From NCBI GenBank assembly GCA_031277345.1, contig JAITMO010000107.1, positions 1-34,860 on the forward strand: a DNA stretch of 34,860 nucleotides, read 5' to 3'. The stretch is from Candidatus Bathycorpusculum soli. GTDB lineage: Archaea; Thermoproteota; Bathyarchaeia; Bathyarchaeales; Bathycorpusculaceae. Of this stretch, positions 4,918 to 34,859 are shown piece by piece. The notes below the pieces were generated by a model. It made no database searches. It saw only the letters and a list, made by a program, of their open reading frames with translations, and was not told where the DNA came from. Every line of letters begins with the position of its first letter. Positions within the stretch are counted from its first letter, which is position 1. Made by a program: the position numbers and the translations under genes.

Positions 4918-5391
4918 TTACATATTAGGCGTTGTACCAAAAGCCTTCATCACCAATGTCCCAAAGAACAAAGACGAAACCATGTACCAAACAAACAAAG
5001 GCAACTCAAAGCCGGGCAAATAAGCTACAGTCACCCCTCCAAAAACAGGTGTTAAAACAAAATACCAAAGAGGCAAATAACAGAAAGACAAAGCCATCTG
5101 AATCATTTGAGGCTTCATCATTTTTGCCTGCATAGCATTAATTTGTGACTGTTTTTTTTTAATCCTCTCAAGCTGCTTAGGATCCTGCGAACGTGCAGCA
5201 TTCATACTTTCCTTTCGAAACTCTGATAGTTCCCGCTGCATCGAACGATAATTATCCAAACCAATAAAATGATTAATAACCACCCGGTTAGTCGACTGAA
5301 TAACAATAGACATAACAAGCGCAATAGCCATAATAACAACTGTTACAACGGGAGCCGATAAAAGCCATTCGGGTGCAGACATACTCATCAC
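4918..5391 (-). CDS. DUF106 / EMC3-TMCO1-like (Oxa1 superfamily) membrane protein
   Basis: About 157 aa, three TM segments with a charged coiled-coil after TM1, next to cmk: the archaeal secY-adk-DUF106-cmk context. Confidence 0.8.
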   Translation of the reverse strand: MMSMSAPEWLLSAPVVTVVIMAIALVMSIVIQSTNRVVINHFIGLDNYRSMQRELSEFRKESMNAARSQDPKQLERIKKKQSQINAMQAKMMKPQMIQMALSFCYLPLWYFVLTPVFGGVTVAYLPGFELPLFVWYMVSSLFFGTLVMKAFGTTPNM

Positions 5392-5568
5392 TTGAAATAC
5401 TTACTTATGTAAACCCTAACCATCTTACTTGTTTATAACCATTTTTACTAATTTACCCACAACACACAAACCGTACCACCACAAATAACCTCAAAAACAG
5501 AATATTTAAACAAAACATAGGCAAGCATTAAAAGCGAAAAACACAATTAAATAAAAAGGAAAAATTAA

Positions 5569-6855
5569 ATGGTAACCGACGATCTGCAAGTCCAACTAAC
5601 AAAGTTTGTGAAAGACAACACAAACATAACAGATGCACAGTGGGACAACCGAATGACCCCACAACTACTATTTAACCCCTACACAAAAGACCACGAAGAA
5701 AAAAAACACACCGCACACTACTTCTTGCTAACCGCAGCAATACTCGACGACCAAATGGTAGGCTTCACAGAAAACGCACGCACCCTACTTATCAACCTAC
5801 ACAAACAATACGGAACCAAACGTCTCTTTGAAATCACCAAACCACACCTCTTCAAAGAAGAAATCACAAAATACAGCTTCTACAACTACCTAGGACCACA
5901 AAAAGAAACCATAGCCGAAACCCTAGCAGCCGTCAACATATTTGTCAAATTCAAAGCCGAAAAAGACCTAATACGATACACACAAAAATTCCCCAAACCC
6001 CAAAACTTTGTAGACGAACTAACAAAAACCATCGAAAAAATGAAAGGCCCAAACAAACACAAAGCATGGACCTACATGCGATGGACCGTACGCCCAAACC
6101 CAGACCTAGAAATCTTTAAACAATACACTCCCGAAGACCTCCAAATACCCCTAACAAAAGAAAACGTCAACGTCGCTATAAGCCTAGGACTAATAAAAAC
6201 CACCATACCACACTTATGGAGAGACCCCGATACAAACAAAAACGCACAAATAAAAATCACCCAATACGCTAAACGAATCTTCCCCACCGACCCAGCAAAA
6301 GCAGACTACCCACTATCCTTAATAGGCAAATGGCTCAAACGAAAAAACCTAAACAGAAATACCCTAAAAGAAGCACTAAAATTTTATGAACAAATCCAAA
6401 CAATCGCAAACCAACCCACACAAACACAACCCCAAAAACCAAACAACTACAAAAGCGGATGGGAAAAAGAAACAGCACGAACACTAAAACAAATGAACAT
6501 ACCCTACGGATACGAAACCATCACCTTCATACTACCAGGAGATAAATACACCCCAGACTTTATTTTAGACAAAGAAATCAATGGCAGAAAAATAATCCTT
6601 GAACCACACTACGAAATGAACCTCAAACAATCATCAAAATACTCCCTATTCAAACAAACCTACGGACACAAATTCATGCTAATACTACTCCTAAAAAACG
6701 ACCTAATATCATTCTTCAACAAAAGAAACATCCTCACAAACGACGTATGCGACGACGTATGGCCAATAGAATACGTCAGCCTACTCATAGACAAAATAAA
6801 AACTGGCGAATACACCAACCAAAACAAAACCAAAGAAACTAACAACAAAAAATAA
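5569..6855 (+). CDS. Uncharacterised 428-aa protein: helical N-terminus resembling DUF2400/HhH-GPD proteins plus PD-(D/E)XK nuclease-like C-terminus
   Basis: Single ORF with AAAAGGAA upstream of ATG. Segment KAWTYMRWTVRPNPDLEIF..PEDLQIPLTKENVNVAISLGLI..IFPTDPAKADYPLSLIGKWL recalls DUF2400/glycosylase-type proteins. C-terminal WEKETARTLKQMNIPYGYE..YTPDFILDKE..IILEPHYEM resembles a restriction-endonuclease fold. Confidence 0.85.
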   Translation: MVTDDLQVQLTKFVKDNTNITDAQWDNRMTPQLLFNPYTKDHEEKKHTAHYFLLTAAILDDQMVGFTENARTLLINLHKQYGTKRLFEITKPHLFKEEITKYSFYNYLGPQKETIAETLAAVNIFVKFKAEKDLIRYTQKFPKPQNFVDELTKTIEKMKGPNKHKAWTYMRWTVRPNPDLEIFKQYTPEDLQIPLTKENVNVAISLGLIKTTIPHLWRDPDTNKNAQIKITQYAKRIFPTDPAKADYPLSLIGKWLKRKNLNRNTLKEALKFYEQIQTIANQPTQTQPQKPNNYKSGWEKETARTLKQMNIPYGYETITFILPGDKYTPDFILDKEINGRKIILEPHYEMNLKQSSKYSLFKQTYGHKFMLILLLKNDLISFFNKRNILTNDVCDDVWPIEYVSLLIDKIKTGEYTNQNKTKETNNKK

Positions 6856-6954: not shown

Positions 6955-8385
6955 TTAGTCGCCTAATAGCGCTTTAAAGGCAGGGAACATTTCAGCAGCA
7001 CGTTCACGCATCAACAATTCATAATACTGATATATGATACCAACAGACAACAAGATACCAGTTCCCGAACCGAAAACACCTAGAAAGTCAGCTAAACCAG
7101 CTATTAGACCAACTATTATACCACCAAGCACCGTCACCACTGGAATATACCGTCTTAATATTTGCTCAATTGGTCGCTCACTACGTCTATACCCCGGAAT
7201 TTGCATGCCACTATCCATAAGCTGCTTAGCCACTTTATTAGGGCCTAAACCGCCAATTTCAAGCCAAGTTAACGAGAATATAGCACAGAAAAGGACCAAA
7301 ATGCCAAGATACACCAATGCGCGAATTGGTTCAGCATATACATTCATAATACCAGAGGGTGCAGTCACATAATGCGCTAAACCACCGATACTGGTAATAC
7401 CTGAACCATCATCAGCATAGTTTCCAAAGATTCGGAAAAACCATGTGACCATAGTTGAGTTAGGATTGTTGAAGCGTGTCCATAGCAGTTGTGTAAAGAA
7501 GAACACGTTTGCAAACAGCGCACTAGCAAATATGACTGGTAAGTTGCTGACATACAATAGTTTAATTGGGTATCTGCTACGGAAGCCTTTGTAACCTGCA
7601 TAAGTTACCGGCAATTCAACACGTATACCCTGCACATATATGATTATAAGAAATACAGCAATTGTCGCAATGAAACCAATTAATGAATATGGATATGAAC
7701 CACCCGAACCTAAGATCCAGCCAGAAGCAGTTAATGACTCCTCTGCAGTGCTTAGCAAAGACGTTAATGCACCTACGAACAAACCATTTGTCGGCGAGAA
7801 AGTAGCCCACAAAATTTGTTGAGCAACACCAGCCATAATAAAGAGACTTATACCACTGCCTAAACCCCAGCCTTTTTGAAGCAATTCATCAAGAAGCATC
7901 ACAACTATACCAACAGCTACCAATTGGAAAAGTATAGCAAGTATCACAATTATACCAAGCTCAGAAAGTGAACCATACATGCCACTCCAAATATACGCAC
8001 CTGCTTGCAAAGCAGTTAAAGCGATAGAGAAAACTTTACTTGCTGAAGTAAAAAGACTTCTATCTTCAGGATTAGACATATCACATTTAATTATTGAAGA
8101 ACCAACAAGTAACTGGAGAATTAAACCAGCAGTCACGATAGGCCCTATACCCAACTCCATCAAAGTACCTCTGTTGGAGGCAAAGATGACTCTCAACTGT
8201 GAAAACTGGTCAAACTCGCTTGGGCCAACACCATAAAGAGGGACTTCAGTCATGACTAAGAAAATTATTAAAACAAGTGCTGTCCAGAAGATTTTTTCAT
8301 TAAAAGAAACTTTGCGTGTGGGTTTTTTTATTTCAGGTAAAATTCTGCCGATTGGCTTAAATATACTAAGGAATCTTCCAGCCAT
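6955..8385 (-). CDS. secY: Preprotein translocase subunit SecY
   Basis: About 10 TM segments, archaeal SecY N-terminus (MAGRFLSIFKPIGRILPEI..), located after rpl15. Confidence 0.97.
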   Translation of the reverse strand: MAGRFLSIFKPIGRILPEIKKPTRKVSFNEKIFWTALVLIIFLVMTEVPLYGVGPSEFDQFSQLRVIFASNRGTLMELGIGPIVTAGLILQLLVGSSIIKCDMSNPEDRSLFTSASKVFSIALTALQAGAYIWSGMYGSLSELGIIVILAILFQLVAVGIVVMLLDELLQKGWGLGSGISLFIMAGVAQQILWATFSPTNGLFVGALTSLLSTAEESLTASGWILGSGGSYPYSLIGFIATIAVFLIIIYVQGIRVELPVTYAGYKGFRSRYPIKLLYVSNLPVIFASALFANVFFFTQLLWTRFNNPNSTMVTWFFRIFGNYADDGSGITSIGGLAHYVTAPSGIMNVYAEPIRALVYLGILVLFCAIFSLTWLEIGGLGPNKVAKQLMDSGMQIPGYRRSERPIEQILRRYIPVVTVLGGIIVGLIAGLADFLGVFGSGTGILLSVGIIYQYYELLMRERAAEMFPAFKALLGD

Positions 8386-27019: not shown

Positions 27020-28963
27020 ATGCAATTTGAACTAGTTTCACCATTCAAAACCTCACCCGGACAAGAAGAGGCAATAAATAAACTATTAGAGAACTATCAG
27101 AAAAAAGAAAAACAGACACTTTTAGGCATCACCGGGAGCGGTAAAACTTTTGTTATGGCAAATGTTATTAGTCGCCTCCAAAAACCTACACTTATTATTG
27201 CTCATAATAAAATTTTAGCAGCTCAACTCTATGCTGAACTAAAAGAGTTTTTTCCAAATAACCGCGTAGAGTATTTTATTAGTTTTTACGATTATTACCA
27301 ACCCGAGTCCTATTTACCCGCACAGGACATGTATATTGAGAAAGATTCTACAGTTAATGACCAAATTGAAAAAATGCGTATGCACGCCGTATCTAGCCTA
27401 GTTAGTCGAAATGACACTATTATTGTTGCAAGTATTAGCTGTATTTACAGCTTGGGCAACCCAGAAGATTTTAAGAGCTTAGCTGTTGATCTACAGATTG
27501 GCAAAGAATTAAGTCGCCAAGAATTGCTTAACAGCCTTGTAGATATGCAGTATGAACGCGATGATACTTTTTTGGAAGCAGGACGCTTTCGCGTTCGAGG
27601 CGACGTAGTAGACATTGTACCCGCCTACGAAAAAGACATCACCCGCATCGAATTTGAAAACAATAAAATAAAAAAAATCAAAGAAGTAAACACTTTAACA
27701 GGCGATATTAAAGTTTCAATCGACCGTGTCACCATATATCCTGCACGACAATACGTAGTGCCACAAGAAAAACATGAAAGAGCATTAACACAAATTCGCC
27801 AAGAACTACAAGAACGCCTCCAAACCCTACCCCCATTAGAAGCCCAACGCCTAAAACAACGCGTCAACTATGACATAGAAATGATAAACGAACTAGGATT
27901 TTGCAACGGCATAGAAAACTACAGCCGACACTTCGACGGGCGAAAAAAAGACGAACCTCCATTCACCCTAATGGACTACTTTCCAAAAGACTATCTACTA
28001 ATTATTGACGAAAGCCACCAAACCATTCCTCAAGCTCACGCCATGTACAACGGCGACTACTCACGCAAAAAAAACCTTGTCGATTTTGGCTTTCGCCTTC
28101 CAAGTGCCCTAGACAATCGCCCACTCAAATTTGAAGAATTCGAACAAAAAATGAAAAGAACACTATTTGTCTCTGCAACCCCCGCAGAATACGAACTACA
28201 AAAAAGTGGCCCACCCGTAGAACTCATCACAAGACCCACAGGACTTTTAGACCCAGAAATCGAAATACAGCCCATCCAAAACCAAATGCAACACTTAATG
28301 CAAGAAGCAAAAAAAACCATCACCCAAGGCAACCGTGTCCTAATAACAACTCTAACAAAACGCATGGCCGAAGACCTAGCTGACTACCTCGTCAAAGAAG
28401 GCTTCAAAGTACGATACATGCACAGCGAAATAGACAGCCTTGACCGCATAGAACTCGTACGACAACTCCGTATAGGCGACTACGACATACTAGTAGGCAT
28501 AAACCTACTCCGAGAAGGCCTAGACATACCTGAAGTTGCAACAATATTTATACTAGACGCAGACAAAGAAGGCTTCCTACGCGACGAACGCAGTCTAATA
28601 CAAACAATCGGCAGAGCCGCCAGAAACCAAAACGGCAAAGTCATACTCTACGCAGACAACCTAACCAAAAGCATAAAACGCGCCACAGAAATCACCGCCT
28701 ACCGACGCAAATTCCAACAACGCTACAACCAAACCCACAACATAACACCCCAAACAATCACCAAAAAAATCACAGAAAAAGAAAGCACAATAAAAGGCAG
28801 CAAACACCTAACAAAAACCGACATACAACGCCAAATCATCGAATTAGACGCAAAAATGAGAGAAGCCGCTCAAAAACTAGACTTCGAAAAAGCCATAGAA
28901 CTCCGCGATACCATAAACACCCTAACCAAAGACTTAACCGAAAAACAAAGACAAGAAAAATAA
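27020..28963 (+). CDS. uvrB: Excinuclease ABC subunit UvrB
   Basis: LLGITGSGKTFVMANV, YDYYQPESYLPAQDMYIEKD, DESHQTIPQAHAMYNGDYSRK, C-terminal UVR motif AQKLDFEKAIELRDTI. Confidence 0.98.
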   Translation: MQFELVSPFKTSPGQEEAINKLLENYQKKEKQTLLGITGSGKTFVMANVISRLQKPTLIIAHNKILAAQLYAELKEFFPNNRVEYFISFYDYYQPESYLPAQDMYIEKDSTVNDQIEKMRMHAVSSLVSRNDTIIVASISCIYSLGNPEDFKSLAVDLQIGKELSRQELLNSLVDMQYERDDTFLEAGRFRVRGDVVDIVPAYEKDITRIEFENNKIKKIKEVNTLTGDIKVSIDRVTIYPARQYVVPQEKHERALTQIRQELQERLQTLPPLEAQRLKQRVNYDIEMINELGFCNGIENYSRHFDGRKKDEPPFTLMDYFPKDYLLIIDESHQTIPQAHAMYNGDYSRKKNLVDFGFRLPSALDNRPLKFEEFEQKMKRTLFVSATPAEYELQKSGPPVELITRPTGLLDPEIEIQPIQNQMQHLMQEAKKTITQGNRVLITTLTKRMAEDLADYLVKEGFKVRYMHSEIDSLDRIELVRQLRIGDYDILVGINLLREGLDIPEVATIFILDADKEGFLRDERSLIQTIGRAARNQNGKVILYADNLTKSIKRATEITAYRRKFQQRYNQTHNITPQTITKKITEKESTIKGSKHLTKTDIQRQIIELDAKMREAAQKLDFEKAIELRDTINTLTKDLTEKQRQEK

Positions 28964-29077
28964 AACACATAAACACACCAACAAGCCCCATTTATAGCCA
29001 CGTTTTTTTAGCACACCTAATACAACTTACACACATTCTCTAAAACAGCTTTTTATACATTTTTTGTTCCCACACCT

Positions 29078-29091
29078 GTAAGTCCACTTAC
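29078..29091. promoter_or_regulatory. Short inverted repeat GTAAGT-CC-ACTTAC upstream of the TraX-like gene
   Basis: Perfect 6-bp arms, 2-nt spacer. Confidence 0.25.
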
Positions 29092-29177
29092 TTTGGATGT
29101 GAACATGATGTTTTGTATGGAATTTTTGTAGGAAGTGTTAAAAACTTGGACAGTAAAGGTATTTAGGAGCAAATATT

Positions 29178-29915
29178 GTGATACGGCATTTTGGTATTTC
29201 AGCAACTGGGTTGAAGTTGATTGCCATTATTGCTATGGTTATTGATCATGTTGCTTGGCAAGTTTCATTGTCTTCGACGCTTTTTCTTTTGCTTCATGGT
29301 ATTGGCCGTTTAACAATGCCAATTATGTGTTTTTTCATTGCTGAAGGATTCTATCATACACAAAACCGGAAGAATTACGCACTACGCTTAATGCTATTTG
29401 CTGTTATTTCACAAATGCCGTTTAATTACTTTATGACTGGAAACCCGTTTAGTATGGGAATAGGCATTGGATCTTTGAATGTTTTGTTCTGTTTGCTACT
29501 TGGTTTATGTGCGTTGTGGGTTATCAAAAGTAAATGTAAAACTGTGATAAAAATCGCGCTTGTTGCGTTATGCTTGTTGGGCGCTGTTTTTTGTGACTGG
29601 ATGATATTTGGTGTTCTTTGGATATTGGTGTTTGGTTTAAATCGTGGTTTGTTTAAGCGTCAAGTGTTGTGTTTCTGTGCGGTTGCTACTGGGGTTTTTG
29701 CATATTTTGCTGCAAATGCCCTAATGGGCAACCCATGGATTTACGCTTTTATACAAATTGGAGTATTTTTGGCATTACCATTTTTATCGACATATAATGG
29801 CAAAAAAAATAGCGGTCCAACATCAAATTGGTTATCAAGTAAATGGGCGTTTTATATTTTTTATCCACTTCATCTGTTAATAATTGCGTTTTTATTTTAT
29901 GGAACGACACTATAA
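29178..29915 (+). CDS. TraX-family multi-pass membrane protein
   Basis: GISATGLKLIAIIAMVIDHVAW..GIGRLTMPIMCFFIAEGFYHTQNRKNYALRLMLFAVISQMPFN; C-terminal KWAFYIFYPLHLLIIAFL. Confidence 0.88.
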   Translation: MIRHFGISATGLKLIAIIAMVIDHVAWQVSLSSTLFLLLHGIGRLTMPIMCFFIAEGFYHTQNRKNYALRLMLFAVISQMPFNYFMTGNPFSMGIGIGSLNVLFCLLLGLCALWVIKSKCKTVIKIALVALCLLGAVFCDWMIFGVLWILVFGLNRGLFKRQVLCFCAVATGVFAYFAANALMGNPWIYAFIQIGVFLALPFLSTYNGKKNSGPTSNWLSSKWAFYIFYPLHLLIIAFLFYGTTL

Positions 29916-30164
29916 GGATAAGCCTGTTTGATATTTACTTCCAAAAAAAGCTCATAAAGCAAGTTTCCAGTGGGGTGTAGTGAAAAAACGTCATGACCGA
30001 GTTTTTTTCATAGAGAAGAAAATGAACTGATTATTTTACCTGAAATGTTAAAGTAAAAAAGTATCAATTGTTTGTTAGATGTTACTAGTTAAATCAACAT
30101 TTTTAGTGCAATAAGGTTGAAATGTTAGGGAGTTGACTTTTGTTTAAAATTTAGGTTTTGTAGT

Positions 30165-33035
30165 ATGCGGGATGTTATTTCTGTTAAGGGCGCAAGAGAG
30201 CATAATTTGAAGAATATTGATGTCGAGTTACCTAGAAATAAGTTGATAGTGGTTACTGGGTTGTCGGGTTCGGGTAAGTCTACTTTGGCGTTTGATACTA
30301 TTTATGCTGAGGGGCAACGTCGTTATGTTGAGAGTTTGAGCGCGTATGCGCGGCAGTTTTTAGGTTTGATGGATAAACCTGATGTGGATTCTATTGATGG
30401 TTTATCTCCGGCTATTAGTATTGAGCAGAAGAGCACTAGTAAAAACCCTCGCAGTACAGTTGGTACTGTTACGGAGATTTATGATTATTTGCGTTTGCTT
30501 TTTGCGCGTATTGGTGTGCATCATTGTCCTAAGTGTGGTAGTAGTATTCATCCGCAAAGTCCAGAGAACATTACGAGTTTAATTATGCAAGAAAAGGGCA
30601 AAACGCTTTTGTTTCTTGCGCCTATTATTAGAGGTATGAAGGGAACCCATGAGCAGGTTTTTGAGGATCTTAAAAAGGATGGGTATACAAAGCTTCGTGT
30701 GGATCAAAAAATTTACGAAACTGAAACGGTGAAAGATGAGGTTAGGTTAGTTAGGTATGAGAAGCATTGGATAGAAGTTGTTGTAGATACTGTTGCTATT
30801 TGTGAGGAAGAGCGTTCTAGAATTGCAGAGGCTGTTGAAGGAGCGTTAAAAATTGGTAAGGGAACTATGATAATAATTGATGCAAATGATGTATCAGCAG
30901 GTAAGAAAAAGGAGCTTGAGAGTTTTGAGGGTGCGATAATGTATAGTACTTTTGGTGCGTGTCCTAATCATCCAGAAATAATGTTTGAGAGTTTAGAACC
31001 ACGTATGTTTAGTTTTAACTCTCCATGGGGGGCTTGTCCATCTTGTCATGGTCTTGGAGAGATTACGGAGGTAACGTCAGATAAGATTATTCCAGATATG
31101 AGTCTTTCAATTATGGATGGTGCCTTAGCGGTTTATGGAAAAATGGATTTATCTTGGCGCGCTCAACAGCTATCAGCTGTAGGTAAAAAACATGGTTTTG
31201 ATATTTTTACACCTATTAAAGATTTTACAGAAAAACAGTTACATTTGCTGCTTTATGGTGATCGTGAACCGATAAAGGGTAAATGGTCAAATGGTGTTAA
31301 CATGTCTATGCATGAGGGTTGGGAAGGCGTTATTCCGCAGACCATGCGCCTTTATAGACAAACGGAGAGTAACTGGCGTAAAGAAGATATAGAAAAATTC
31401 ATGACAGCAAAACCCTGTAACAGCTGTCAGGGCAAACGTTTACAGCCTATGGTGTTAGCAGTTCAAATTCAAGATAAAAACATAATTGATGTAACGGATT
31501 TATCTATAGAAAAAGCAGGAGAATTCTTTCAAGCTTTACCTAAAAAACTTAATGAAAAAGAAACAATCATAGCCAAACAAGTGTTAAAAGAAATCAACTC
31601 ACGTTTAGGCTTTCTAATAAACGTCGGCTTAGGCTACCTAACATTGTCACGTGCTGCAAAAACTTTGTCAGGAGGAGAAGCACAAAGAATACGCCTAGCC
31701 ACACAAATAGGCAGTAACCTCATGGGTGTCCTCTACATTTTAGATGAACCCAGCATAGGCTTGCATCAGAGAGATAACACTAAACTAATAAACACTCTAC
31801 ACAGACTACGAGACTTAGGTAACACACTTATAGTGGTAGAACATGATGAAGAAACCATGCGTAACGCTGATCACCTAATCGATATGGGACCAGGCGCAGG
31901 AGTACATGGAGGCTTCATTGTAGCTGAAGGCTCACCACAAAAAGTCATACAAAATAACCGCAGCTTAACAGGCAAATACCTCGCTGGAAAACTAAAAATA
32001 GACATCCCACAAAACCGTCGAAAACCCACAGACTACATAAATATACAAGGAGCATCAGAAAACAACTTAAAAAATCTTGACACACAGCTTCCCCTAAACG
32101 TTTTATGTGGCATAACAGGCGTATCAGGCTCAGGTAAAAGCACTCTAATGAACCTAACCGTCATACCACAACTCCGCAAAAATTTTGGAGAACAAGTAGA
32201 CAAAATAGGCAAACATAAAAAAATACAAATTCCCAAAACCATACGCAACGTTATAGTCATAGACCAAGACCCCATAGGACGCACTCCAAGAAGTAACCCC
32301 GCCACATACACTAAGCTCTTCGACGAAATCCGTAAAATCTTTGCCACAACAAGAGAAGCTAAAACACGTGGATACAAAGAAGGCCGATTTAGCTTTAACG
32401 TCAAAGGTGGCAGATGTGAAAATTGTCAAGGCGACGGCGTAATACGCATAGAAATGAACTTTCTGCCAGACGTCTACGTTCAATGCAGTGAATGTAAAGG
32501 CAAACGCTATAACAAAGAAACCCTAACAGTGCAATACAAAAATAAAAACATAGCCGAAATTCTAGACATGACCGTAGAAGAAGCCCTAAAATTTTTCGAA
32601 AACACGCCCCAAATAGCCCGCAAACTACAAACCCTCGACGACGTAGGTTTAGGATACATAAAACTAGGACAAAGCTCAACTACCCTCTCAGGCGGAGAAA
32701 GTCAACGCATCAAAATCACACGCGAGCTCAGCAAAAACAAGCAAGGACACATAGTCTACATGCTAGACGAACCCACCACAGGACTACACTTCGACGACAC
32801 AAAACGCCTAATCAAAGTCCTAAACCGACTAGTAGACAAAGGCAACACCGTATACATAATCGAACACAACCTTGACGTCATCAAAAGCTGCGACTACCTC
32901 ATAGACATAGGCCCCGAAGGCGGCTTAGCAGGCGGAAAAATAATCGCAGAAGGCACACCTGAAGAAATAGCACAAAACAAAACATCCTACACAGGCACAT
33001 TCCTAAAAAAAATACTAACCCCCCAGAACACATAA
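30165..33035 (+). CDS. uvrA: Excinuclease ABC subunit UvrA
   Basis: VTGLSGSGKSTLAFDTIYAEGQRRYVESLSAYARQFL, LSGGEAQRIRLATQIGS, CENCQGDGVIRIEMNFLPDVYVQCSECKGKRYN, LSGGESQRIKITREL. Confidence 0.98.
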   Translation: MRDVISVKGAREHNLKNIDVELPRNKLIVVTGLSGSGKSTLAFDTIYAEGQRRYVESLSAYARQFLGLMDKPDVDSIDGLSPAISIEQKSTSKNPRSTVGTVTEIYDYLRLLFARIGVHHCPKCGSSIHPQSPENITSLIMQEKGKTLLFLAPIIRGMKGTHEQVFEDLKKDGYTKLRVDQKIYETETVKDEVRLVRYEKHWIEVVVDTVAICEEERSRIAEAVEGALKIGKGTMIIIDANDVSAGKKKELESFEGAIMYSTFGACPNHPEIMFESLEPRMFSFNSPWGACPSCHGLGEITEVTSDKIIPDMSLSIMDGALAVYGKMDLSWRAQQLSAVGKKHGFDIFTPIKDFTEKQLHLLLYGDREPIKGKWSNGVNMSMHEGWEGVIPQTMRLYRQTESNWRKEDIEKFMTAKPCNSCQGKRLQPMVLAVQIQDKNIIDVTDLSIEKAGEFFQALPKKLNEKETIIAKQVLKEINSRLGFLINVGLGYLTLSRAAKTLSGGEAQRIRLATQIGSNLMGVLYILDEPSIGLHQRDNTKLINTLHRLRDLGNTLIVVEHDEETMRNADHLIDMGPGAGVHGGFIVAEGSPQKVIQNNRSLTGKYLAGKLKIDIPQNRRKPTDYINIQGASENNLKNLDTQLPLNVLCGITGVSGSGKSTLMNLTVIPQLRKNFGEQVDKIGKHKKIQIPKTIRNVIVIDQDPIGRTPRSNPATYTKLFDEIRKIFATTREAKTRGYKEGRFSFNVKGGRCENCQGDGVIRIEMNFLPDVYVQCSECKGKRYNKETLTVQYKNKNIAEILDMTVEEALKFFENTPQIARKLQTLDDVGLGYIKLGQSSTTLSGGESQRIKITRELSKNKQGHIVYMLDEPTTGLHFDDTKRLIKVLNRLVDKGNTVYIIEHNLDVIKSCDYLIDIGPEGGLAGGKIIAEGTPEEIAQNKTSYTGTFLKKILTPQNT

Positions 33036-33224
33036 AAAATAGACTTCTTTCTTTGTTTAAACAACCCCTTAACTAATAGCTAAAAATGATTGTTAATACA
33101 TTGACCAAGCGTTTATAGATGAAATAGCAACATCAGAAATGTAGCTCGCTTGTTTATTGTGAATTAACCTTTTTAGAGAAAAATACTTATGCGCACAAAT
33201 TAAAACAATTATTAGGCATAGTCT

Positions 33225-34859
33225 ATGATTGAACTGTCAAGTTTGGCTGATTTCAAAAGCACCGATATGCCCACTAATCCAGGCGTATATTTGTATCGTA
33301 ATAATCAAGGAGAGATTCTGTATGTGGGTAAGGCTAAAAATCTTCGCAGCCGAGTAAAGAGTTATTTCGCAAATATTGATCAGCCACCTAAGACACGTAA
33401 GTTGCTTTCACACATAAAAAGTATTGATTGGATTATTGTCAATAATGAGGTAGAGGCATTGTTGCTGGAAAACAAGTTAATCAAACAACACATGCCAAAG
33501 TACAACATTAATCTTAAAGATTCCAAAACTTATGCATATATCGCGTTAACTCGTGAAGATTTTCCACGAATTTTAACTAGCCGTAAAGTTTCACCTAAAT
33601 TGGAGTCATTTGGACCGTATACAGATGGGTTTACTCGACAGGATTTGCAACGACTAGTAACTAAAGTTTTCAAACTACGTACATGTAAGAGTTTACATAA
33701 ACGAGCTTGTTTAAATTTTCATATTGGCAATTGTACAGCACCATGTGTTAGAGCAATCACTAAAGAACAGTATGAAGATCAAGTAAAAAACGCCCGACTA
33801 TTTTTGGAGGGAAAGTTTGAGGTAACTCTGCAGGTTTTAGAGGAACAGATGCAGCAAGCAGCAACAAATCAACAGTTTGAAAGGGCATTAGAGTTACGGA
33901 ATCAAATAGAATCTATTCGACTTTTGACACAACGACAAGTGGTAGATAACGAGAAATGCTTTGATCAAGATGTAATGGTTTTTTGCCAAGAGGATGATAA
34001 AGTACATATTGTTCAAATGGGTTTACGCCACGGAGTTCTGCTTGGTAAAAAAGAGTTTATCATTGATAGACAGCCTTTGATAGAACAAGAGTTTCTAAAA
34101 GCGTATTATGCTGTTAACCAAATTCCACGAGAAATTTTACTTAACAAACCTTGCTGGCAAGACAGTGAAGAGAAAAAAGCTTTAGAAGAATTTTTACATG
34201 CAAAACGATTAGCACCTGTCGGATTAACAGTTCCTAAAAGAGGCAATAACGTATGTCTTGTACAATTAGCAGAAAAAAATTTACAGTCCAACCTAAAAGG
34301 CAACACCACTCTAAAAAATCTACAAAAAACACTTAATTTACCCAAACTTCCCAATGTTATTGAATGTTTTGATATTTCTAACCTCGGACAAGAGCACATT
34401 GTTGCAGGCATGACACGGTTTGTAAACGCTAAAGCAGATAAAAAAAATTACCGCAAATTTAAAATAAAAACAGTAACAGGACAAAATGACTTTGCATCCA
34501 TGTACGAAGTGGTTACCCGCAGATTCAAACGCTTAAAAGAAGAAAACACCCAAATGCCCGACCTAATAATCATTGACGGCGGCCCAGGCCAAGTAAACGC
34601 AGCCCAAACAGCCTTAAACACGCTACAAATAAAGATCTCAATCATAGGATTAGCTAAAGAAAAAGAAGAAATCTATAAACCCAACAACCAAACACCCATA
34701 CAACTAAACAAAAACAGTCACATAATGCTCCTAATACGACAAATCCGTGACACAACACACGACTTCTCAGTAAAATATAACCGTAAACGCAGAGAAATAC
34801 AAATACGAAACGAATTCACCAACAACACCAAAAAAGAAGAAAAACATCAAAAACAATAA
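33225..34859 (+). CDS. uvrC: Excinuclease ABC subunit UvrC, short C-terminus
   Basis: GIY-YIG domain NPGVYLYRNNQGEILYVGKAKNLRSRVKSYF, Cys motif CKSLHKRACLNFHIGNCTAPC, UVR motif, ECFDISNLGQEHIVAGMTRF, IIDGGPGQVNAA, RDTTHDFSV. Confidence 0.96.
   Translation: MIELSSLADFKSTDMPTNPGVYLYRNNQGEILYVGKAKNLRSRVKSYFANIDQPPKTRKLLSHIKSIDWIIVNNEVEALLLENKLIKQHMPKYNINLKDSKTYAYIALTREDFPRILTSRKVSPKLESFGPYTDGFTRQDLQRLVTKVFKLRTCKSLHKRACLNFHIGNCTAPCVRAITKEQYEDQVKNARLFLEGKFEVTLQVLEEQMQQAATNQQFERALELRNQIESIRLLTQRQVVDNEKCFDQDVMVFCQEDDKVHIVQMGLRHGVLLGKKEFIIDRQPLIEQEFLKAYYAVNQIPREILLNKPCWQDSEEKKALEEFLHAKRLAPVGLTVPKRGNNVCLVQLAEKNLQSNLKGNTTLKNLQKTLNLPKLPNVIECFDISNLGQEHIVAGMTRFVNAKADKKNYRKFKIKTVTGQNDFASMYEVVTRRFKRLKEENTQMPDLIIIDGGPGQVNAAQTALNTLQIKISIIGLAKEKEEIYKPNNQTPIQLNKNSHIMLLIRQIRDTTHDFSVKYNRKRREIQIRNEFTNNTKKEEKHQKQ

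Follow-up and report, generated by a model that had tools for sequence, protein, structure and literature searches.

A DUF2400 protein with a T7 endonuclease I-type domain, a candidate DNA-incision nuclease of Candidatus Bathycorpusculum

Candidatus Bathycorpusculum soli encodes a 428-aa protein that joins an N-terminal DUF2400 domain to a C-terminal domain matching phage T7 endonuclease I. The gene lies in a 34,860-nt stretch of contig JAITMO010000107.1 (positions 1 to 34,860), here called the window. Based on domain comparisons, residue patterns, and selection, we favor, with moderate confidence, the reading that this is a housekeeping DNA-incision nuclease, in which a catalytically inactive HhH-GPD body would be combined with a T7 endonuclease I-type cutter. 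In the open-access literature that we searched, we found no description of a DUF2400 plus T7-endonuclease-I-type combination; DUF2400 is mentioned incidentally in a single paper, and TIGR02757 and PF09674 are absent.

Genomic context, distribution, and selection

The gene (Table 1) runs from an ATG start to a TAA stop. As in the preliminary description, it is a single 428-aa ORF between secY and a DUF106 gene, on the strand opposite to both, and the motifs quoted there are present where it placed them. It is divergent from the DUF106 gene and convergent with secY. The AT-rich upstream region that had been described corresponds to the 177 nt between the target and DUF106 genes, in which putative promoter and ribosome-binding elements can be read by eye. 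Only in the window and its closest relatives (L032-L039) does the gene sit inverted between DUF106 and SecY; at the other loci compared, it is placed elsewhere. The window also encodes UvrABC, as had been noted, with UvrB, UvrA, and UvrC grouped on one strand (27020-34859). Between uvrB and uvrA lies a 245-aa ORF with no NCBIfam match.

Table 1. Positions of the gene, its domains and key residues, and other genes in the window
Feature	Position	Strand	Basis
Whole gene, DUF2400 (HhH-GPD-like) + T7-endonuclease-I-like fusion	5569..6855	+	ORF, homologs, dN/dS
TATA-box-like atatttaaac, DUF106/target intergenic region	5502..5511	+	by-eye reading; putative
Shine-Dalgarno-like AAAGGA, ~8 nt 5' of ATG	5555..5560	+	by-eye reading; putative
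N-terminal part, residues 1-125, aligned to first half of DUF2400	5569..5943	+	profile-profile comparison only
DUF2400 core, residues 129-253, invariant RWxxR...DL and DP...D motifs	5953..6327	+	Pfam PF09674, family alignment
Thr196 at HhH-GPD catalytic Asp position	6154..6156	+	IPLDTHV (viral/bacterial DUF2400) to IPLTKEN; family alignment
Linker, residues 257-290	6337..6438	+	no cysteines; at place of C-x8-C-x2-C-x5-C Fe-S-type motif of other archaeal DUF2400
T7-endonuclease-I-like PD-(D/E)XK core, residues 291-376	6439..6696	+	PDB profile, Pfam, PHROG, viral profile matches
Glu299, T7 endonuclease I Glu20 equivalent	6463..6465	+	33/33; PDB-profile alignment
Asp330 (PDF), Asp55 equivalent	6556..6558	+	33/33; PDB-profile alignment
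Glu345 of E-P-H, Glu65 equivalent	6601..6603	+	33/33; PDB-profile and viral-profile alignments
His347 at Lys67 position	6607..6609	+	His 32/33, Arg 1
Lys357, candidate replacement positive charge in following helix	6637..6639	+	K 32/33; helix and role predicted
DUF106	4918..5391	-	
SecY	6955..8385	-	
UvrB	27020..28963		
245-aa ORF	29178..29915		
UvrA	30165..33035		
UvrC	33225..34859		

Homologs were found in 40 of the 163 genomes of the order, and the closest relatives come from Candidatus Bathycorpusculum genomes (termite-gut Bathyarchaeia). Within the genus, 31 of 32 genomes have a copy: 29 carry the window-type protein (55-81% identity) and two carry a ~450-aa paralog alone (33-38% identity), while some genomes have both types. 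In this paralog (L041, L042, L043, L044, L045, L047), which occurs beside or instead of the main type, LEPHG replaces LEPHxEM. Outside the genus, homologs are scattered over 7 of 69 genera in the order and 10 of 109 in the class, and such patchiness above the genus level is not typical for a core repair enzyme.

The gene is conserved and under purifying selection. Close pairs of homologs yielded dN/dS values of ~0.03-0.2, with dS at ~0.7 or above and partly saturated. In close pairs, dN is 0.02-0.05 in the nuclease region versus 0.05-0.16 in the DUF2400 region; within the main group, the nuclease core averages 79% identity and the DUF2400 part 64-65%. The nuclease domain evolves at a rate ~3x lower than the remainder of the protein, a difference that one would expect if the nuclease carries out the protein's function. 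At catalytic positions, the codons show synonymous changes only (GAC/GAT, CAC/CAT). The spread of homologs, the low dN/dS, and these synonymous-only codons show that the ORF is real and not due to chance; the slow change of the nuclease domain and the catalytic codons also argue that the nuclease, His347 included, is functional.

The N-terminal domain belongs to DUF2400

Pfam DUF2400 (PF09674) matches residues 129-253 alone, with E=6.4e-10 and 39.9 bits against a gathering cut-off of 25; the NCBIfam cut-off for TIGR02757 was missed (39.1 vs 139.2 bits). In profile-profile comparisons of the window family with DUF2400 the similarity spans the whole domain, both with the outgroup sequence L050 included in the family (against viral DUF2400; prob 99.1, E=1.5e-18) and with it left out (E=7.6e-17). 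The window protein has the same RWMVR...D(L/F)G.W...L.IPL.xxV...LGL...DP.k.D core as DUF2400/TIGR02757 proteins from Bacteroidota, Bacteroides phages, and others, and RW..R, D241-P242, and D246 are invariant among 33 homologs.

An AlphaFold model of the full-length window protein with 9 close homologs had a pLDDT of 39.5 and was set aside, so the fold of the protein is taken from its family. We analyzed 11 viral DUF2400 proteins for this purpose. The viral DUF2400 model (pLDDT 87) is almost all-helical, and all 50 of the 50 PDB matches listed by Foldseek are HhH-GPD glycosylases, with the M. jannaschii 8-oxoguanine glycosylase first, followed by OGG1, EndoIII, MutY, NTHL1, and MagIII. Because the individual E-values from Foldseek are modest (0.056 at best, with most TM-scores at 0.3-0.5), a profile comparison with EndoIII was added. 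The DUF2400 alignment matched ~20 EndoIII-type proteins with P=9e-12 and a score of 84 versus a shuffled maximum of 26 (60 column shuffles), placing the invariant IPLDTHV on the catalytic Asp of EndoIII VDTHV; the Lys of SACKRL, also invariant, aligned with the hairpin Lys. When the viral DUF2400 profile was compared with PDB sequences, EndoIII was the main match, at a sub-threshold level. The window family alone did not match the EndoIII profile, and the connection goes through DUF2400. The single window sequence had no match in PDB (phmmer). Given the Foldseek and EndoIII profile matches, DUF2400 is best read as a member of the HhH-GPD (EndoIII/OGG/MutY) family. The DUF2400/HhH-GPD-like N-terminus proposed in the preliminary description is thus borne out, by a Pfam match above cut-off and by a family fold assigned from model and profile.

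Residues for glycosylase chemistry are lost

While the DUF2400 family appears by model and profile to have its fold in common with the HhH-GPD glycosylases (EndoIII/Nth, OGG1/OGG2, MutY), the window protein is without their catalytic Asp and Lys, Fe-S cysteines, and classical GVGxKTA hairpin. At the catalytic Asp position, 31 of the 33 homologs have Thr and one has Asn; Asp occurs only in the distant outgroup L050. The lyase Lys position (164) is occupied by H, N, D, S, G, or A in the family, with K only in the outgroup, and position 165 by K, R, E, N, or H. In contrast, most bacterial and viral DUF2400 proteins stand alone, and their K and D are invariant; the window protein has T196, no conserved Lys, and an added nuclease.

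These substitutions bear on whether the window protein could be active as a bifunctional DNA glycosylase/lyase to which a nuclease is attached, that is, a true base-excision enzyme. The HhH-GPD fold would fit such an activity, as would the retention of Asp and Lys by stand-alone DUF2400 proteins of viruses and bacteria, and two annotations: in Parabacteroides a TIGR02757/DUF2400 gene lies directly 3' of a DNA alkylation repair (AlkD-like) gene (L220:2073-3528), and one phage DUF2400 copy is annotated as N-glycosylase/DNA lyase. However, with Asp changed to Thr or Asn in 32 of 33 homologs and the Lys not conserved in the window family, base-excision chemistry is unlikely, and we give this reading very little credence. 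The alternative base-excision enzyme suggested earlier therefore finds no support in the window family, which instead seems to have retained the glycosylase fold solely to read DNA.

The C-terminal domain is of the T7 endonuclease I type

When the family profile was compared with PDB, T7 endonuclease I accounted for all four matches (2pfj, 1m0d, 1fzr, 3cae; E 1.8e-6 to 2.8e-5). Viral scans recovered 46 T7-endonuclease-I-like phage proteins, and the C-domain profile matched the viral homologs with E=3e-17 and a score of 108 versus a shuffled maximum of 17. The nuclease domain also matched PHROG 945 (E=5.5e-8), while the Pfam Phage_endo_I match (E=1e-4, 22.2 bits) fell under the gathering score of 29.1. 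From these profile matches, we assign the C-terminus to the PD-(D/E)XK domains of the T7 endonuclease I type, a narrower placement than the PD-(D/E)XK-like C-terminus first reported.

The window protein keeps the SGxE...YE...YTPDF.L...E order of phage T7 endonuclease I (PF05367), including equivalents of its residues E20, D55, and E65. It differs in having His in place of K67, in its sub-gathering Pfam score, in being fused after DUF2400, and in being a cellular archaeal gene. The E / PDF / E-x-H order with His for the usual Lys, previously read from one sequence, is a family trait: E299, D330, and E345 are invariant in 33 of 33 homologs across ~20-81% identity, which was the conservation check named beforehand, and His347 is present in 32 of 33. 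The substitution of His for Lys could mean an inactive or an altered nuclease. In PD-(D/E)XK families, the motif-III Lys can be replaced or can migrate to the next helix (PMC1913061), and Lys357 is a candidate for the latter (Table 1).

If both domains were degenerate, the window protein would be a non-catalytic DNA-binding protein with a structural or regulatory role. Both the Lys-to-His change in the nuclease motif and the lost glycosylase residues are consistent with this, but the E/D/E residues are invariant over that whole identity range and no other part of the protein is as well conserved as the nuclease domain, so we regard a non-catalytic role as improbable.

The nuclease type also raises the possibility of a branched-DNA (Holliday junction or fork) resolvase like T7 endonuclease I, in which DUF2400 would only stabilize DNA binding. 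In addition to its T7 endonuclease I grouping, the domain matches a PHROG Holliday junction resolvase family. Against this, the small subunits of T7 endonuclease I form a domain-swapped dimer, and Hjc was found in 10 of 10 carrier genomes checked, so the standard resolvase has not been replaced. A resolvase role is therefore doubtful, though it is the alternative that we take most seriously.

Proposed role in DNA incision

The comparisons establish to which families and folds the two domains belong, how the key residues are conserved, and that selection acts on the gene; from these we infer DNA binding, cleavage, substrate, and pathway as follows. The HhH-GPD-type DUF2400 that makes up the N-terminal two thirds would bind and probably bend or probe duplex DNA, its glycosylase/lyase chemistry being gone. 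The T7 endonuclease I-type C-domain would then cleave the DNA; E299, D330, and E345 would coordinate metal, and H347 (or K357) would take over from the usual Lys. The likely result would be a nick or two-strand cut at a lesion, mismatch, distorted, or branched site, which may be passed on to a repair pathway that runs alongside UvrABC, Hjc, and NucS. The lesion recognition plus strand nicking proposed in the preliminary description remains plausible for this protein.

We also considered whether the window protein could substitute for known repair enzymes. The ten carrier genomes checked contain Hjc (10/10), NucS (9/10), and EndoV (9/10) at frequencies much as in non-carriers, which rules out replacement of Hjc, NucS, or EndoV by the window protein. 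No EndoV gene turned up in the draft genome that contains the window (91% complete); the other Bathycorpusculum genomes checked have it.

Another reader-plus-nuclease function would be modification-dependent restriction or antiviral defense, in which the glycosylase-like domain would recognize a modified or flipped base on invading DNA, which the nuclease would then destroy, comparable to type IV restriction enzymes. The reader-plus-PD-(D/E)XK architecture would suit this, and so would the patchy distribution above the genus level, the occurrence of DUF2400 in Bacteroides phages and of a DUF2400-plus-tail protein in an archaeal provirus, and one divergent homolog (L040) that adjoins a NucS/PDDEXK nuclease gene. 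However, the gene is single-copy, near-universal in the genus, and under strong purifying selection. PADLOC-DB 2.0.0 assigned 0 defense families to six homologs, and our neighborhood survey found no recurring partner gene across loci; the neighbors are unrelated housekeeping genes that encode a radical SAM protein, a P-type ATPase, RtcB, a PKD-repeat protein, and similar. The presence in 31 of 32 genus genomes, together with the lack of conserved neighbors and of a PADLOC match, speaks against defense. We consider a restriction or antiviral nuclease unlikely, and the earlier suggestion of a small defense effector finds no support in these surveys.

If the favored incision role is true, the window protein is a candidate lesion- or structure-specific nicking enzyme, and it would represent an incision-repair route in an archaeal group whose repair is poorly known.

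Other DUF2400 proteins in archaea, bacteria, and viruses

A second type of DUF2400 protein occurs in 5 other Thermoproteota genomes (G137, G310, G390, G526, G538) and in the Archaeoglobus pleolipovirus provirus ApPV1 (gp05). Here, the motif C-x8-C-x2-C-x5-C stands at the EndoIII Fe-S cluster position and is followed by a nuclease-like tail with motifs RPDFFC...AEAK, SADALMH...VEVE...IGQA, or RADIVC...VEVK. We found no detectable similarity of these tails to the T7 endonuclease I profile (L050/L129/L133) and no meaningful match in PDB for the tails of L134, L215, and L129; on the L134 tail, the Pfam matches (Cas4 and HSDR_N) were all sub-threshold. A profile of Fe-S archaeal DUF2400 had no useful PDB match, and no viral relatives of this type were found in viral contigs. 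Based on motif reading only, the tails appear PD-(D/E)XK-like. The window protein has the same general layout, with PD-(D/E)XK-like motifs in a domain that lies C-terminal to DUF2400, but the Fe-S-type proteins differ from it in having the Fe-S-type motif, in mostly keeping Asp and Lys, and in a tail without detectable similarity to T7 endonuclease I. The provirus protein, from Archaeoglobus profundus (BK065154; L215:3971-5230), has 419 aa and is annotated as hypothetical.

Tentatively, we suggest that fusion of a DUF2400 reader of HhH-GPD origin with various nuclease domains may have happened repeatedly in archaea and their viruses. The products would be a class of direct-incision repair (or modification-dependent) nucleases whose glycosylase fold serves for site finding only. 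The Bathycorpusculum branch would then be the extreme case, its glycosylase inactivated and its nuclease a captured T7 endonuclease I of the phage type. As the archaeal fusions suggest, the HhH-GPD fold may have been put to a second use, guiding a nuclease.

In bacteria and phages, DUF2400 proteins either stand alone or carry other tails. Their HhH-GPD membership, together with the Asp and Lys retained in the stand-alone members, predicts that they are DNA glycosylases. DUF2400 also occurs in Bacteroides-type phage contigs (L221-L231), three of which (L221-L223) encode an extra C-terminal region of ~130 aa or more. In the archaeal genus g18, a nuclease-less DUF2400 keeps the HhH-GPD Lys and Asp (ARKRV, IPLDRN). 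It is encoded by two ORFs that overlap by 29 nt, in the same arrangement in 2 genomes (L048:4674-5487, L049:1331-2144), which could represent two subunits, a conserved frameshift, or decay.
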